Shown one piece after another: positions 2,547 through 16,745 of a DNA stretch of 24,952 nt (position 1 is the stretch's first letter; every line of letters starts with the position of its first letter). The position numbers were made by a program, and so were the translations under genes. The stretch spans positions 1-24,952 of the IMG/VR virus record IMGVR_UViG_3300025000_000398; one strand, 5' to 3'. The notes under the pieces were generated by a model that did no database searches, had not been told where the DNA came from, and saw only the letters and a program-made list of their open reading frames with translations. Origin of the DNA: a virus.

Positions 2547-4247
2547 ATGGCACTAACCCAGGCAAAGCAAAAACTGTTCGACAAGGAAGTGGAAGCGATC
2601 CGCCAGATGATCCAGGCGTCCGCCAAACCTTTCCCTGCTAACAAGGCCGAACAGAAGGCCCGCAAAGCCAAGGCCGAAAAAGACCTGGATTACTTCAACC
2701 GGACTTACTTCCCGCACTACTTCACCAAACCGTCCAGCCGCCTGCACAAGTACTTCGCCGCGCGTTACCCGGCCATGATCAACCGGGCCGTGGCGACCGG
2801 TGAAGGCGACAAGGAAGCCAACGCCGCGCCCCGTGGTAACGCCAAATCCACCACCGGCACCTTTGGCCTGCCGCTCTGGGCAGCCGCCTTCCGCAAGCGC
2901 AAGTTTGCCCTGATCGTCTCCGAGACCCGCGGCCAGGCCGAAAGCTTCCTCTCCTTCATCAAGATCGAGCTGGAGACCAACGAGCGCCTGCAGCAGGATT
3001 TCCCCGAGCTGTGCGGCGAGGGCGCGGTGTGGCGATCGGATCAGATCATCACCCGCAACGGCGTCAAGATCCAGGCCGCCGGGGCCGGACAGAAACTGCG
3101 CGGCCTGCGCCACGGCAACTGCCGCCCTGACCTGGTGATTGTCGATGACCTGGAAAACGACGAATCGGTCGAATCGCCCGACCAGCGCCGCAAGCTGGAA
3201 AACTGGTTTTTCAAGGCGCTGATGAAGATCGGCCAGCCGGACACCGTGTTCATCGTGGTCGGCACCATCCTCCATTACGACTCGCTCCTTGCCAAGCTGT
3301 TGGTCAAGCCAGGCTGGAAAGGGCAGAAGTTCAAGGCGGTCATAAAGTGGAGCCCGGCAGTCAAACGCTGGGAGGAGTGGGAACGGATCTTCGCCGATAT
3401 CTCCATCGGCAAAGAACAGGCCGAGGCTGCCGCCGACAGCTACTTTGCTGCACATGAAGCCGAGATGCTGGCCGGTACCGAAGTGCTCTGGGAGGAGATG
3501 GAGCCGTACTACTACCTGATGAAGATGCGGGTCTCGGATGGCCCGGCCTACTTCGAGAGCGAAAAACAGAACGAACCGCTCAACCCCGAGGACCAGGTGT
3601 TTTCGGAGGAATGGTTCCAGGATTGGACTGACGGCGACATCGATCTGGAAGGGGTGCTGCACGCCGGATCATGCGACCCGTCCCTGGGCAAGCAGAACAA
3701 ACGCTCCGACCCGTCGGTCATCATGGGCGGCCGCATGAAAGAGCGCATCCTCTATCTGGATATCGCCGATATCGCCAAGCGCCAGCCGGACCAGATCCTG
3801 GTCGATATCCTCGCCTATCACGAGCGCGATCCGTTCGACAAGTTCCGTTTTGAGACCATCCAGTTTCAGGAGTTTTTCGCCCGTACCGTTGAGCAGACCG
3901 CCCACGACAAGGGCATCACCCTCAACATCGATGAGTTCAAACCGAACACCGACAAGGATCTGCGCATCATCCGGCTGCAGCCCTGGATCAAAAACGGCTG
4001 GATCAGGTTCCGGGCGGAGCATGCAGAACTGAAACGCCAGCTGATCTACTACCGCCCCAAAGGCCGGGGCGGTCACGATGACGGCCCGGATGCCCTGGAG
4101 ATGCTGTTGGGATTATGCGAAGGCGCGCTGATCACCGCCGCCTGCGCCCCACCCCAGGAAACCACCCCCGACAATTACCACGCCGAGCGCAAAGGCATAT
4201 TTGCCGGAATCAAAGGCCGCCAAAAATACGGGAGACGAAGAATTTAA
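2547..4247 (+). CDS. terL: Phage terminase large subunit
   Basis: A 566-residue packaging motor that cuts concatemeric or host-joined phage DNA and pumps it into proheads. The N-terminal ATPase has a Walker A-like APRGNAKST at residues 94-102 and a Walker B LVIVDDLEND at 196-205. The C-terminal RNase H-like nuclease shows a metal-binding Asp377 in CDPSLG and the late acidic motif HDDGPDALEM with Asp515. Length and motif order fit Mu/D3112-type large terminases. The ATG follows an AAAAGGGA stretch. The stop codon TAA forms the first bases of the next palindromic repeat, so the repeat joins the coding end exactly. Confidence 0.93.
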   Translation: MALTQAKQKLFDKEVEAIRQMIQASAKPFPANKAEQKARKAKAEKDLDYFNRTYFPHYFTKPSSRLHKYFAARYPAMINRAVATGEGDKEANAAPRGNAKSTTGTFGLPLWAAAFRKRKFALIVSETRGQAESFLSFIKIELETNERLQQDFPELCGEGAVWRSDQIITRNGVKIQAAGAGQKLRGLRHGNCRPDLVIVDDLENDESVESPDQRRKLENWFFKALMKIGQPDTVFIVVGTILHYDSLLAKLLVKPGWKGQKFKAVIKWSPAVKRWEEWERIFADISIGKEQAEAAADSYFAAHEAEMLAGTEVLWEEMEPYYYLMKMRVSDGPAYFESEKQNEPLNPEDQVFSEEWFQDWTDGDIDLEGVLHAGSCDPSLGKQNKRSDPSVIMGGRMKERILYLDIADIAKRQPDQILVDILAYHERDPFDKFRFETIQFQEFFARTVEQTAHDKGITLNIDEFKPNTDKDLRIIRLQPWIKNGWIRFRAEHAELKRQLIYYRPKGRGGHDDGPDALEMLLGLCEGALITAACAPPQETTPDNYHAERKGIFAGIKGRQKYGRRRI

Positions 4248-9176: not shown

Positions 9177-9288
9177 GTTCAATGTTCAATGTTAGAGGCA
9201 GTTCAATGTTTAAAACCTCGAACCTTGAACATTGGACTTTGAACAGTTTTTTAAACCTCGAACGTTGAACGTTGAACGTTGAACAAAA
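9177..9288. repeat. Heptad tandem-repeat array 2 (TTGAACG type)
   Basis: The left part has TTCAATG units (GTTCAATGTTCAATGTT) and the right part the complementary type, ending in three perfect TTGAACG copies. The phrase AAACCTCGAAC occurs twice, near 9215 and 9256. It separates the capsid gene from the exported-protein cluster, just before a GGAGG site. Confidence 0.85.
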
Positions 9289-9304: not shown

Positions 9305-9745
9305 ATGAAATTTAAAAGCATTTTGATGGCAATCATGCTGATCGTCGCGACGACCGTGGCCGGCCTTGCCCTGGCAGCCACTTCCAACCCGTCCCCGGCC
9401 TCGCCCGGCTACACCCCGGTAGTGCTGCCGATCATGGGCACTTATTCCGGCGCCCGCACCGGCCTGGTCAAATTCACCGCCCCGGCGAAATACTCGATCG
9501 TCTCGGCCAGCGTCAACGCCCGTGGCGTGACCGGCACCAACCCCACCCTCAAGGTTTATTTGAAATCCGGGGCATTCACGAACTACACCGGCACGGTCAC
9601 GGCCGCCGGCACGGTCAAGGTGTTGACCGCCGGCACCACCACGCTCATTGCCGATGAGGCCACCGTAGCTGTGGATCTGGTAACAGGAGGGACCTCGCCG
9701 CAATGGCGGGATCTGACGTTGTTTATCTTGCTAAAGAGATTGTGA
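9305..9745 (+). CDS. Exported beta-rich protein resembling a head decoration protein
   Basis: A 146-residue protein from the ATG at 9305, chosen over an upstream frame opening at 9272 because GGAGG precedes it and the sequence then begins with a textbook signal peptide: MKFK, a hydrophobic core (ILMAIMLIVATTVAGLA) and a likely cleavage after ALA. The mature part is Gly/Thr/Val-rich beta structure (GLVKFTAPAKYSIVSASVNA; LIADEATVAVDLV; WRDLTLFILLKRL). It recalls jelly-roll decoration or fibre domains encoded next to capsid genes in other phages, but those have no signal peptide. It may be a repurposed decoration protein sent to the periplasm or surface. No enzyme motif is visible. A terminator hairpin follows. 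Confidence 0.65.
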   Translation: MKFKSILMAIMLIVATTVAGLALAATSNPSPASPGYTPVVLPIMGTYSGARTGLVKFTAPAKYSIVSASVNARGVTGTNPTLKVYLKSGAFTNYTGTVTAAGTVKVLTAGTTTLIADEATVAVDLVTGGTSPQWRDLTLFILLKRL

Positions 9746-9821: not shown

Positions 9822-10034
9822 ATGAAATTACTGCCCGCTGTCCTCATACTGTCCACTGCCCTCTGCCTTCTGGCCGGTTGTGGCGACACAACCAAAACTA
9901 CAACTATTGTACCGCCTCCTGTGAATAACACGACCACCAACAACACCAATACGACCACAACCACCACAACCACAACAACCGACAGCAACAACCCGGTAAA
10001 CATCGTTCTGCCGACACCCACGGGCGTTATGTAG
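9822..10034 (+). CDS. Thr/Asn-rich small lipoprotein
   Basis: A 70-residue protein with AAAGGAG eight bases before the ATG. The signal peptide ends in a lipobox, LLAG-Cys at residues 17-21, predicting lipid attachment and anchoring in the inner or outer membrane; the residue after Cys is Gly, not the Asp of the inner-membrane retention rule. The mature part is low-complexity, with runs of Asn and Thr (TTTTTTTTTT), likely an unstructured or O-glycosylatable stalk. Prophage lipoproteins of this size are often exclusion factors that block superinfecting phages, but no homology is claimed here. The DNA encoding the signal peptide closely resembles the local CTGTCC heptad repeat. Confidence 0.65.
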   Translation: MKLLPAVLILSTALCLLAGCGDTTKTTTIVPPPVNNTTTNNTNTTTTTTTTTTDSNNPVNIVLPTPTGVM

Positions 10035-10058
10035 GGGCGGGGTCTCCCCACCCTTATT

Positions 10059-10103
10059 TTGAATCTTGAACCTTGAACGTTGAACCTTGAACGTTGAACA
10101 AAA
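10059..10103. repeat. Heptad tandem-repeat array 3 (TTGAACG/TTGAACC)
   Basis: Six consecutive 7-base units, TTGAATC, TTGAACC, TTGAACG, TTGAACC, TTGAACG and TTGAAC, run on the plus strand only, directly before the AAAAGGAG site of the next exported-protein gene. The phase and flank match the right end of array 2, so the pair could recombine and delete the genes between. Confidence 0.88.
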
Positions 10104-10116
10104 AAAAGGAGCAACC

Positions 10117-10515
10117 ATGAAAACCCTGTTCACTGCCTTTCTACTGTCCGCTGTCCTCTGCCTCTCACTGTCCACTGCCTCTCACGCCATCAACGTCACC
10201 CCCGGCAAACTGGCCAACGACGGCACCTCCAGCATTCAGGCATTTATCCCCGACCCGGCCAAGGCCCAGGTGCCGATCAACCTGGCCACCACCAAGGTTT
10301 TCAAAAAGGGTACCGGCGCCGATTACAACATCACCGACTGGACAGCCATCAACATCATCCCCAGCACCACCAACATCACCCGCTATTTCAACAGCGACAG
10401 CACCAAAACCCGCACGATCTACGCCGACCAGGACAACATCATCATCATCCACCCCGACGTCACGCAGATCACCATCAGCGGTGTGGATGCCAGTGTTGAG
10501 GTTGAGGGGATGTAG
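10117..10515 (+). CDS. Small exported protein with repeat-like signal peptide
   Basis: 132 residues from the ATG at 10117; the upstream in-frame opening at 10087 lies inside the heptad array and lacks a ribosome site, whereas AAAAGGAG precedes this one. Residues 1-24 form a signal peptide (MKTLFTAFLLSAVLCLSLST, then ASHA). The mature part is beta-rich (TRTIYADQDNIIIIHPDVTQ, then ITISGVDASVEVEGM). I do not recognise the family. The DNA of the signal peptide core reads CTGTCCGCTGTCCTCTGCC and CTGTCCACTGCC, matching heptad arrays elsewhere in the window. It ends in an amber codon followed by a further open, Cys-rich stretch in the same frame. Confidence 0.65.
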   Translation: MKTLFTAFLLSAVLCLSLSTASHAINVTPGKLANDGTSSIQAFIPDPAKAQVPINLATTKVFKKGTGADYNITDWTAINIIPSTTNITRYFNSDSTKTRTIYADQDNIIIIHPDVTQITISGVDASVEVEGM

Positions 10516-10703: not shown

Positions 10704-12686
10704 ATGAAAAGATTTTTGATGGTGCTGATGATATTAGCGGTGGCGGGAAACTGTTGGGCAGGCTGGCTAGATGGTTGGACTAAACGGCAGTCGCTAACTG
10801 TGGCGGGCGTAGCAACATCTCAAACAAACTATGCCGTTAAACTAACAGCGCATTTTGGCGCTGGCGAAGATACCGTAACGGATATTTATTGTAATTCGGC
10901 TGTCAAGACAGATTTTTCCGACCTTCGTTTTACCGCAGCGGACGGGACCACATTATTGTCTCACTGGATCGAGACAAAAACTGACAGCGACAACGCCGTA
11001 GTATGGATAAAAATACCATCTATACCCGCATCACCAGATACAGTTGATATCGTCATATATTATGGTAATGCTGCCGCCTCCTCAACCAGTAATATCAACA
11101 CCACATTTCTTCTGGCCGAGGATTTTGAAGCTGTAAAGGGTCAAGTGCTGGACAATACCAGCGCCCTCGATATCCCGTGCTATTACAGCACCCCCTCAAA
11201 TCAACCGGTTCATCCATCGGTTCTGTATTTCCCGTCTGGCTGGCATGGGCACACCTACTGGATGGCGTTTACTCCATATCCGAACTCGGTGAGCAGCTAT
11301 GAAAACCCCTCAATTGTGGTTTCTGCGGACAAAACCACATGGAGCGTGCCGACAGGTCTGACCAATCCCGTAGTACCAAAATCACCCACTGGCTACAACT
11401 CCGATACTGAATTGGTCTACAACGACACAACCGACGAACTCTGGATGTATTTCAAGGCCACCGAGGACAGCTCTGCCACCTGGAAACTATATGCTATTAA
11501 AAGCGCCGATGGAATAGCCTGGACTGACTTGGATGGTGGCGCTATTACAAACGTCCATCTGGGCACCGTGGTACTGGATGTCGGGGCCGCTGAGGAGGTG
11601 TCACCTGCGGTTCGTAAAATATCAGCGGATTCCTGGGTAATGTGGACAGTTACTCAAGCGGGCGCGCCTCGCGTAATCAAGAAATACACATCGACTGATG
11701 GGAGAAGTTGGGGTACTGGCACAAACGCGACTGTTACGCATTTGGGGGGTATAACCACATCATTTTCCCCCTGGCATATCCAGGTTAAATATCTCGTCTC
11801 AAAATCCAAATATCTAATGATGGCGAATAATTCGGCCACCGTCCCAGGGTCTCTGTTTTTACTTGAAAGCACAGACGGGGCAGCGTGGACACTATACCCA
11901 GTTCCGCTCCTCGATCCGTCAACTGCCGGGTGGGACAATGGCTTGATTTACCGCGCAACTTTCCTGTTGGATGCCTCAGACGTTGTAAATGTTTGGTATT
12001 CCGGGCGCGCAACAGCAACAGTATGGGGCACTGCATATACGGAGATTGGCTATGATGCCCTGATTGCCGCTGCTACGACCCCAATCCCAGGCTGGACTGT
12101 TGATTACAACCCGGTCATGACTTTGCGGGTGAAGCGGGACACAACAAATGTGGTCCAAGGCGTAGCATCTGCCGTGGTGACAGGCAAGGGAACGTTGAAC
12201 CGAAGTTTTGGCACAAACAACCACGTCCGTGCGGCGTTAAATATCTATGACACCAACTCAACATCGTTGCAGATGCTGTTACAGGTGACAAATGCGGCGA
12301 ATACCAGCAGAGACGCAGTTGGTGTATCAACTGGCAACAGCGCCGGGTATATCGTTTACTCCGGACAAAGCAGCGATTGGGTAGTAACGGAAGTCCCTCG
12401 CGCTTTAGGTTACAAAAAAGTAGAGGCCGCGGCCAATGTCAACGCGTTTACGTTTTATTCCGACGGAACATCGTTAGGTACTAAAACCGGCCAATTCAGT
12501 GATGCCACAAGAGTCAGACTGACAAAAGACCTGAATAATGCAACCTATCTGGATGCCCTAACGGTCAGGCCTTATGTTTCACCAGAACCGGCAATTAGTG
12601 GTATTGGCGCAGAAGAAACGGCAGTATCCTCCCCCAAACACAACACCCGCCGCTTCGGCCCTCTCCGTTCCGGATTCAGATTTTAA
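10704..12686 (+). CDS. Secreted DUF2341 / beta-propeller protein
   Basis: 660 residues from the ATG at 10704, preferred to a start at 10650 because it has GGAG upstream and opens with a signal peptide (MKRFLMVLMILAVAGNCWAG). Residues about 20-130 match DUF2341: GWTKRQSLTV, then FSDLRFTAADGTTLLSHWIE, then VWIKIPSIP and IVIYYGNAAAS. Residues about 150-460 look like a five-bladed glycoside-hydrolase or sialidase-like propeller with recurring S-x-DG-x-x-W motifs (SADGIAWT, STDGRSWG, STDGAAWT). Residues about 470-640 look like a LamG/concanavalin-type beta sandwich. It may bind or trim surface glycans after export. Base composition is more AT-rich than the flanking head genes, suggesting separate acquisition. 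Catalytic residues were not identified. Confidence 0.7.
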   Translation: MKRFLMVLMILAVAGNCWAGWLDGWTKRQSLTVAGVATSQTNYAVKLTAHFGAGEDTVTDIYCNSAVKTDFSDLRFTAADGTTLLSHWIETKTDSDNAVVWIKIPSIPASPDTVDIVIYYGNAAASSTSNINTTFLLAEDFEAVKGQVLDNTSALDIPCYYSTPSNQPVHPSVLYFPSGWHGHTYWMAFTPYPNSVSSYENPSIVVSADKTTWSVPTGLTNPVVPKSPTGYNSDTELVYNDTTDELWMYFKATEDSSATWKLYAIKSADGIAWTDLDGGAITNVHLGTVVLDVGAAEEVSPAVRKISADSWVMWTVTQAGAPRVIKKYTSTDGRSWGTGTNATVTHLGGITTSFSPWHIQVKYLVSKSKYLMMANNSATVPGSLFLLESTDGAAWTLYPVPLLDPSTAGWDNGLIYRATFLLDASDVVNVWYSGRATATVWGTAYTEIGYDALIAAATTPIPGWTVDYNPVMTLRVKRDTTNVVQGVASAVVTGKGTLNRSFGTNNHVRAALNIYDTNSTSLQMLLQVTNAANTSRDAVGVSTGNSAGYIVYSGQSSDWVVTEVPRALGYKKVEAAANVNAFTFYSDGTSLGTKTGQFSDATRVRLTKDLNNATYLDALTVRPYVSPEPAISGIGAEETAVSSPKHNTRRFGPLRSGFRF

Positions 12687-13482: not shown

Positions 13483-13573
13483 ACAGGGAAACCAGAGGCC
13501 AGGGAACAGAGGACAGTGGACAGAAAGGCTTTTACTGTTCGCTGCACGCTGCTTTTCACTGTTCGCTGCCTTT
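13483..13573. repeat. Heptad tandem-repeat array 4 (inverted arms)
   Basis: The left arm contains AACAGAGGACAGTGGACAG units and the right arm ACTGTTCGCTGCACGCTG and CACTGTTCGCTGCC units, which are roughly complementary. The array runs right up to the ATG of the next gene, leaving no room for a normal ribosome binding site. Confidence 0.8.
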
Positions 13574-14089
13574 ATGAACTTCCATATCAATATCACCAGG
13601 TCCGGCAATCTGCTCTCAGGCAAGGCCCCGCAGATCGTTCAAAGCCACCTGGACCAGGCCATCACCGAGGCCACCCTGTTTCTGGATGCCAAGGTCAAGG
13701 CAAATACCCCCCAGGGGGTTTACGGCGGCCTGCTCGGCTCGATCCAACACGATATACCGGGCAAGGGCACCCCGCTGGTCAAAGGTATGATCATGACCGC
13801 CCACAAATACGCCGAGGTGATCGAAAAGGGGCGCAAACCGGGCAAAGGTATTGCCTCAGCAGACCCAGGAGGCAAATACGTTTCTCCACTCCTCCCTTGG
13901 ATTAGAGTCAAGTTGGGATTATCCGGCAAAGACGCGGAAAGTGCCGCCTATTTAATTGGCCGCAAGATCAAACTCAAGGGTTTCAAAGGCGCGCACATGT
14001 TCGAAAAGGCGTTAACCGACAACTGGCCCCAGGTGGAAAAAATATTTGACTGCCACGGCCTCAGCATTGCCAAGGAACTAAGCGAATGA
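13574..14089 (+). CDS. HK97 gp10-like tail completion / neck protein
   Basis: A 171-residue protein with the layout of the HK97-gp10 or minor tail Z family: an N-terminal helix with VKANTPQGVYGGLLGSIQHD (about residues 41-60), corresponding to the common VKxxTPxxTGxLRxSI pattern, followed by a segment with YAEVIEKGRKPGK, where the family has YAxxxExGt, and a C-terminal helix. Such proteins join the tail to the completed head. The start lies directly after a heptad array with no Shine-Dalgarno sequence, so initiation may depend on RNA structure or coupling. The stop overlaps the next start (ATGA). Confidence 0.75.
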   Translation: MNFHINITRSGNLLSGKAPQIVQSHLDQAITEATLFLDAKVKANTPQGVYGGLLGSIQHDIPGKGTPLVKGMIMTAHKYAEVIEKGRKPGKGIASADPGGKYVSPLLPWIRVKLGLSGKDAESAAYLIGRKIKLKGFKGAHMFEKALTDNWPQVEKIFDCHGLSIAKELSE

Positions 14090-16202: not shown

Positions 16203-16624
16203 GCGCCTCGCTCTGCGAGTGCGCCGAACGTCTGGGCCTGCATCGGCAGGATGACAGCGTGCACACCTGCCATCCTGCCGGCCGCCACATCTGGCAATAT
16301 TTTCAGGAGCTGTCCCGCACCAGGGGCAAACACACCATCATGATCGCGGGCATGGGCGGCAGCCAGATCATGCACGAACCGGCCGCCATCACACATGTCG
16401 AGATAGCAGCCTGGCTAACCGTAACCAAACGCTCTTTGAACCGCTTTGAAAACCGCTGCCTGGCGCTGATGGACAACATCTATCTGGCCGCCGTCAATGG
16501 CGGCAAACAAAAGGCCCGCACCGATCAGGAGATCGGTGAATACTGCCGGAATAAGCAGCTGGAAAAATGCAAGAAGGAATTTGGTGAAGGGTTGGCAAGG
16601 GTTTGCAGCACGTGTCCGGAGTAA
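15792..16624 (+). CDS. Tail assembly chaperone, -1 frameshifted (GT-like) form
   Basis: A -1 slip on T TTT TTG (16187-16193) joins the G-like frame to a frame open from there to TAA at 16622, giving a predicted 277-residue protein. After the slip it reads FFAQISASLCECAERLGLHR and on without a stop. The downstream part has no convincing start of its own: the first candidate is a GTG at 16259 with no ribosome site. A hairpin, nine bases beyond the slippery site, has the spacing usual for a stimulator. In lambda and most siphophages such G/GT fusions are needed for tail assembly. The T domain here has several cysteines (CEC, CSTC), possibly metal-binding. Confidence 0.78.
16187..16224 (+). promoter_or_regulatory. 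Programmed -1 ribosomal frameshift signal
   Basis: The slippery heptamer T TTT TTG is in the correct zero-frame phase (X XXY YYZ). It is followed by a nine-base spacer and a hairpin: GCGCCTCGC (16203-16211), loop TCT, GCGAGTGCGC (16215-16224) with one bulged T. The zero-frame stop at 16200-16202 sits in the spacer. Confidence 0.8.
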
Positions 16625-16745
16625 AACAGTGGACAGTGAAAGGCGGAAAACAGTGAAATGCAAGCGTACAGCGTACAGTAAAAGCCTTTCTGTTCACTGT
16701 CCTCTGTCCACTGTTCGCTGGTCTTTGCCTTTCACTGTTCGCTGA
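16625..16745. repeat. Heptad tandem-repeat array 5 (inverted arms)
   Basis: Left arm units: ACAGTGG, ACAGTGA, ACAGCGT, ACAGCGT. Right arm units: CTGTTCA, CTGTCCT, CTGTCCA, CTGTTCG. The sequence CAGTGAAAGGC near the left end is the complement of GCCTTTCACTG near the right end, so the whole intergenic gap can form one long imperfect hairpin just before the tape measure start. Confidence 0.85.

Follow-up and report, generated by a model that had tools for sequence, protein, structure and literature searches.

The STRR of cyanobacteria are among the heptameric repeats of bacterial genomes. Other heptameric simple repeats are GGGAATC in Xanthomonas and Nostoc (PMC4692102) and TAACTGA in Beggiatoaceae (PMC4679880), and the available portions of these two papers describe such repeats as common and little studied. 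The repeats described here resemble them, as far as these portions go, in their tandem 7-base units, their mainly intergenic location, often just before start codons, and their occurrence in unrelated lineages. However, these portions treat the repeats as intergenic or regulatory and make no mention of signal peptides. Extensive turnover of signal peptide sequence is described for the GDF/BMP family (PMC2717928). Similarity is lost there and function kept, as is probably so in our case, although the proteins are eukaryotic and the accessible part of that paper names no repeat as the source of new sequence.

Repeats inside signal peptides have precedents. The leader peptide of Neisseria opa contains coding repeats of the pentamer CTCTT (PMC3960869). 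The unit length of this short tandem repeat is not divisible by 3, and the repeat contributes to the signal peptide of a protein that is exported; both points also hold for the 7-base units in the signal peptide coding regions found here. However, opa is one gene family in which the repeat is a phase switch, whereas here many unrelated genes are involved, and the heptads are dispersed, mostly degenerate, of several families and also intergenic. The near-perfect, fast-slipping tract of the opa type is lacking in the window, where both tracts are imperfect, although some bacterial tracts are perfect over at least 4 units. The enterobacterial RU-2 repeat forms part of the predicted signal peptide of Yersinia YPO1552 (Delihas 2007, PMC2759123). 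There too, a dispersed intergenic repeat supplies a signal peptide and homologues carry unrelated signal peptides at the same place, which is the same logic of replacement. RU-2 is a single MITE-like element of 168 bp with few cases, whereas the units here have 7 bp, n-region and core may stem from different repeats, and the genes are those of phages and of core envelope proteins of two phyla. In the open-licence literature, we found no account in which heptads recurrently give rise to signal peptides across genes, heptad families and phyla; papers on heptameric repeats together with signal peptides concerned only phase variation or unrelated subjects. The first-pass annotation knew of no description of its proposed mechanism. 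The recurrent, multi-family, cross-phylum form of repeat-built signal peptides appears undescribed.

The window analysed is the complete virus record IMGVR_UViG_3300025000_000398, with a length of 24,952 bases. It encodes a terminase, portal and capsid of the tailed-phage type, and the terminase has up to 80% identity to proteins in Geobacteraceae and related assemblies. Few start-proximal heptad-pair matches were identified in 141 genomes of Geobacterales, the taxon suggested by the terminase, so this group is probably not the repeat-rich source. Directly after the capsid gene are four genes for predicted exported proteins (to our knowledge, an exported protein inside a phage head gene block is unusual). 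A small signal peptide-bearing protein is conserved immediately after the capsid gene among five related phages (9305-9745 in the window, L033:2293, L034:9160, L035:9132 and L036:9071). For each of the four genes, 5000 synonymous versions of the signal peptide DNA, encoding the same residues at the local codon usage, were generated and their heptad scores compared with that of the original; p values from these synonymous shuffles are given with the genes:

9305 to 9745, + strand: exported protein, gene adjoining the capsid gene; ordinary, non-repeat signal peptide at 9305-9376 (p=0.78, negative control)
9822 to 10034, + strand: small Thr-rich lipoprotein, 70 aa; signal peptide at 9822-9881 (MKLLPAVLILSTALCLLAGC) made of CTGYCCN heptads (p=0.0006)
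10117 to 10515, + strand: exported protein, 132 aa; signal peptide at 10117-10188 (MKTLFTAFLLSAVLCLSLSTASHA) from heptads (p=0.0002)
10704 to 12686, + strand: exported DUF2341 protein; ordinary signal peptide (p=0.995, negative control)

The heptads of the second and third genes recur in the intergenic gaps, in the three inverted arrays of the following list:

857 to 1010, + strand: inverted heptad array with a CAGYGNA arm, AAAAGCCTTT centre and CTGTCCN arm (fold z=-0.4)
9177 to 9285, + strand: TTGAACN heptads, a second family, in the gap from the capsid gene to the 9305 gene
10059 to 10099, + strand: TTGAACN heptad array immediately 5' of the ribosome-binding site of the 10117 gene
13483 to 13574, + strand: inverted heptad array, GGACAG arm first and CTGTTCG arm second (fold z=-2.4)
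16620 to 16740, + strand: inverted heptad array before the tape-measure gene, forming a strong hairpin (-45 kcal/mol, z=-4.85)

The three inverted arrays share a layout of CAGYGNA-type arm, centre AAAAGCCTTT or its reverse complement, and CTGTYCN arm. The TTGAACN heptad has a stop in one frame, and no signal peptide core is possible on that strand. In the window and in the genomes considered below, tandem 7-base units are present in several copies at many dispersed intergenic sites, as in heptameric simple sequence repeats of the STRR kind.

The first-pass annotation had proposed an origin of the 9822 and 10117 signal peptides in the dispersed heptad, and this is borne out. Both N-termini are plausible predicted signal peptides on inspection, with a positive n-region and hydrophobic core, and with a lipobox LAGC in the 9822 protein (MKLLPAVLILSTALCLLAGC|GD) and an AXA-type site in the 10117 protein (MKTLFTAFLLSAVLCLSLSTASHA|IN). 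The string CTGTCCACTGCCCTCTGCC lies at 9849-9867 within the former, and CTGTCCGCTGTCCTCTGCC (10144-10162) and CACTGTCCACTGCC (10166-10179) lie within the latter. The same heptads make up the intergenic arrays: CTGTCCACTGTCCTCTGTCC is located at 957-976, and CTGTCCNCTGNCC, allowing at most one mismatch, occurs 15 times in the window compared to 0.56 expected (dinucleotide shuffles, of which the largest count was 3). Five of these matches are in the two signal peptides and the others in the three inverted arrays, at about 957-1005, 13497-13523 and 16690-16716. Heptad scores of the two signal peptides (52-54) exceed nearly all of their shuffled versions (34-36), and 7-base autocorrelation is likewise in excess (p=0.0014 for 9822 and p=0.0018 for 10117), whereas the neighbouring signal peptides of 9305 and 10704 have no excess of heptad score. 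As the shuffle test is positive for two of four signal peptides, the resemblance is at the DNA level and specific to these two. The heptads are not perfect, with short interruptions (CATA, TCTA, TCA) and C-for-T changes that remove the in-frame proline of the perfect repeat. Here, as in bacterial signal peptides described below, the match to the dispersed repeat goes beyond chance, and we conclude that the signal peptides of 9822 and 10117 very likely derive from it.

The suitability of these heptads follows from arithmetic. Because 7 leaves a remainder of 1 on division by 3, an array yields the same cyclic heptapeptide whichever of a strand's three frames is read. The computed products, LSSVLCP for a CTGTCCT array and LFTVHCS for a CTGTTCA array, are stop-free and hydrophobic, whereas the reverse strands are hydrophilic or contain stops. 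The sense strand of such an array is a ready-made hydrophobic stretch. Lys-bearing heptads encode peptides resembling an n-region (AAGTCAC gives KSQVTSH and AAATTTC gives KFQISNF).

Related phages provide cases in which the signal peptide differs between orthologues. Phage L033 has a capsid 79% identical to that of the window and shares the gene block. In its 9305 orthologue (L033:2293), DNA identity is 89% over the mature part (329/369 columns), whereas only 48/103 columns of the signal peptide DNA alignment are identical; the L033 signal peptide is heptad-built and reads MKNLSSLLCTLFTVLCLTFLCLTVLWPLSTVSA, encoded by a stretch containing CTGTTCACTGTCCTCTGTCTCACG. The outgroup phages L034, L035 and L036 carry three further ordinary signal peptides, unrelated but at the same place, so the heptad signal peptide of the L033 orthologue is probably the derived state, judging from this comparison. 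Two further L033 proteins have heptad signal peptides, and synonymous shuffles of the L033 signal peptides give p=0.0002. Upstream of the L033 gene at 3178, a CTGTCC array in the intergenic gap (3120-3178) adjoins the ribosome-binding site and runs on into the signal peptide, broken only by that site and ATGAAAACC. Near relatives of this protein (L421, L422, L423) have unrelated signal peptides at the same place. Thus, both the 9305 family and the L033:3178 protein have orthologues with unrelated signal peptides in the same position. For the 9822 protein no homologue lacking a signal peptide was found, nor an orthologue outside L033, and for the 10117 protein identical copies were the only homologues found. 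Separately, arrays also extend gene ends, since the C-terminal SEKQRTEDSVQ of the L033 lipoprotein comes from the antisense arm of an array (L033:3090-3178). Apparent reverse-transcriptase genes, from reading of open reading frames, are present near a possible variable protein in L034 (12803-13909) and L036 (11550-12560), which is suggestive of candidate diversity-generating retroelements.

Heptad-built signal peptides recur well beyond these phages. An unrelated phage, L070, has the signal peptide MKKLSGPLPSVLCPLSSVLCLLLLPSVLCLLSSC (synonymous shuffle p=0.0002); it came from a pattern scan of viral contigs (ATGAAR plus a heptad pair) in which most of the matches listed were unrelated chance matches. 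In viral contigs, strict arrays that closely follow ATGAA showed no sense-strand bias (3 sense, 15 antisense, with 7 of the 15 belonging to one phage family). In the viral family of L202-L205, L209, L211 and L213, an antisense heptad array extends the N-terminus by a hydrophilic segment (MKNRGQGTGNREQ), which precedes a hydrophobic one. Among bacteria, strict arrays were identified in 16/395 Desulfobacterota genomes and, using a slightly shorter pattern, in 27/198 Nitrospirota genomes. Seven of 55 distinct strict array clusters of the two phyla (open-ended frames) lie in sense within signal peptides, compared to 0.44 expected (P=4e-7, both values assuming uniform, random placement of arrays). 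These are L175, L187 (HlyD), L195 (FlgH), L455 (FlgI), L458, L460 (TolB) and L463 (M16 peptidase), and the arrays of FlgH, FlgI and TolB are perfect over at least 4 units. An eighth cluster (L462, 1417-2682) encodes a prepilin-like protein with an N_methyl motif, in which the leader before KKGFTLVE holds two heptad families. Looser sites add the heptad signal peptides of a TolC-type protein (L254) and a YfiO lipoprotein (L261). In 30 array-poor genomes, 0/50 sites of the same kind were in signal peptides versus 5 in the array-rich set, a difference that is not significant alone.

Periodicity of 7 bases beyond synonymous shuffles (p 0.0002-0.005) was detected in signal peptides of TolC-type, SBP, LolA-like, BamB-like, YfiO, PilP, PilQ, LptE and Slp proteins. 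Core envelope proteins with heptad signal peptides in repeat-rich Desulfobacterota and Nitrospirota thus include FlgH, FlgI, TolB, TolC-type, YfiO/BamD, PilP, PilQ and others, and most relatives compared are metagenome assemblies. In several signal peptides, two or three heptad families are present as clean tandem units. For example, the L409 solute-binding protein begins with ATGATTTACGAATTACGAATTACGAATTACGAATTAAAAAATCATAAATCTAAAATCGTAAATCTAAAATC and continues to CTGCTTACTGCCTACTGCCTACTGCC, with units of GAATTAC, AAATCTA and CTGCCTA in this order. The heptad chain spans the entire signal peptide in the clearest cases, with Lys-bearing heptads as n-region and CTG-type heptads as core.

Tracts with a 7-base period, whatever their sequence, were sought in three repeat-rich genomes (G234, ~515 kb; G315, 244 kb; G365, 400 kb) and an array-poor control (G232, 400 kb), with signal peptides called by a home-made hydrophobicity rule and starts taken from the longest open reading frame. 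In G315, tracts are present in 8/44 signal peptides and 1/162 other N-termini (p=1.9e-5), with 1/206 for C-termini and 1/206 for gene middles. The values for G234 are 6/101 and 5/341 (p=0.02), with 4/442 C-termini and 2/442 gene middles. G365 (3/57 signal peptides, 4/289 other N-termini, 3/346 C-termini, 2/346 gene middles) is a weak replicate that does not replicate the result alone, and at least 2 of its 3 signal peptide calls look false. The control has none (0/64, 0/259, 0/323 and 0/323, respectively). Pooled over the repeat-rich genomes, tracts are commoner in signal peptides (17/202) than in other N-termini (10/792; Fisher p=1.2e-6), a contrast weakened by upstream-extended starts, which some tract-bearing N-termini without a signal peptide appear to have (e.g., a PyrD-like protein). 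Repeat density in signal peptides versus intergenic DNA is 10.9% versus 2.8% in G315, 3.4% versus 2.2% in G234 and 2.8% versus 1.4% in G365, and is low inside genes (0.2-0.7%). From two of the genomes and the array-anchored cases in two phyla, heptad-built signal peptides are likely to be general in repeat-rich genomes.

A core rich in Leu, Ser, Val and Cys might resemble the heptad unaided in this codon usage. Signal peptide cores are indeed Leu/Ser/Ala-rich, and even the shuffled versions have appreciable heptad scores, but coincidence of this kind is rejected by the synonymous shuffles for the 9822, 10117, L033, L070 and bacterial signal peptides, by the repeat-poor control genome, and by the several signal peptides, such as that of L409, in which two or three heptad families form clean tandem runs. 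We consider it very improbable, and chance as the source of the match is excluded for practical purposes. Location close to the start codon could instead be what matters, if the heptads bind a protein or RNA there and their place in signal peptides is a by-product. Arrays do lie directly before ribosome-binding sites in the window and L033, the array before the tape-measure gene folds strongly, and PMC4679880 proposes a role in translation for TAACTGA heptads upstream of starts. But N-termini that are not exported are equally near the start and have fewer tracts, the signal peptide segments are predicted by folding to be unstructured (z=+1.9 for 10117-10190), and quite different heptads fill the same role. 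A regulatory role is possible for the intergenic arrays, and is improbable as the explanation of those in signal peptides.

Gain or loss of 7-base units would shift the frame and could toggle export, as CTCTT does in Neisseria Opa. Flagella, pili and similar surface structures are typical phase-variable targets. The unit length of 7 does not divide by 3, some signal peptide arrays are perfect over at least 4 units, and flagellar and pilus proteins are among the targets, but most signal peptide arrays are degenerate, the two of the window among them, and for this reason would slip more slowly, and YfiO/BamD, LptE and TolB are poor candidates for switching off. We therefore regard contingency loci as an unlikely general explanation, with a phase switch possible for the few perfect arrays (e.g., FlgH and FlgI). 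About as doubtful is the suggestion, made in the first-pass annotation, that insertion of arrays gave signal peptides to formerly cytoplasmic proteins and brought phage proteins to export. In L034-L036, the capsid gene is followed by neither a 9822 nor a 10117 gene, and the relatives L217 and L218 of the L033:3178 protein lack a signal peptide. However, these two are distant, the nearer L421, L422 and L423 are exported, every close orthologue found already has an unrelated signal peptide at the same place, and the bacterial examples belong to normally exported families. Gained export was found in no case; since close orthologues already bear signal peptides, the comparisons point to replacement of existing signals rather than creation of export.

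We favour, with a probability of roughly 0.77, a process in which expanding or invading arrays overwrite existing signal peptides and are tolerated because a signal peptide is constrained only in composition. This reading draws on the DNA-level repeat origin, the replacement in L033, the recurrence in envelope proteins and the higher frequency of tracts in signal peptides than in other N-termini. The signal peptides at 9822 and 10117 would be coding remnants of the heptad repeat that fills the intergenic gaps. Arrays would spread and expand around genes, probably via slippage or template switching. Those entering 5' coding ends would be purged from cytoplasmic proteins and kept in exported ones, where they may survive because charge, hydrophobicity and a cleavage site are all that a signal peptide requires. 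Point changes and small insertions or deletions would then delete prolines and stops and restore the frame, and the outcome would be turnover of existing signal peptides. The heptad-built versions probably work as export signals, given their sequence and the kind of protein that carries them. Much less probable is a broader role, in which heptad arrays would serve generally as modular building material for export signals. Different dispersed heptads would then provide charged n-regions and hydrophobic cores that are the same in every frame, allowing the genomes with such arrays to build or exchange signal peptides fast, and the arrays would perhaps be selected (including for frame switching) and not merely tolerated.

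The origin and fast turnover of signal peptides are rarely visible in sequence, and here the source DNA is still recognisable. As it can be traced in phage genes and also in conserved envelope genes of bacteria from two phyla, the birth and replacement of signal peptides become testable. Annotation tools may take repeat-built signal peptides for wrong starts or junk. Short dispersed repeats of 7 bases would be an unexpected source of new export signals.
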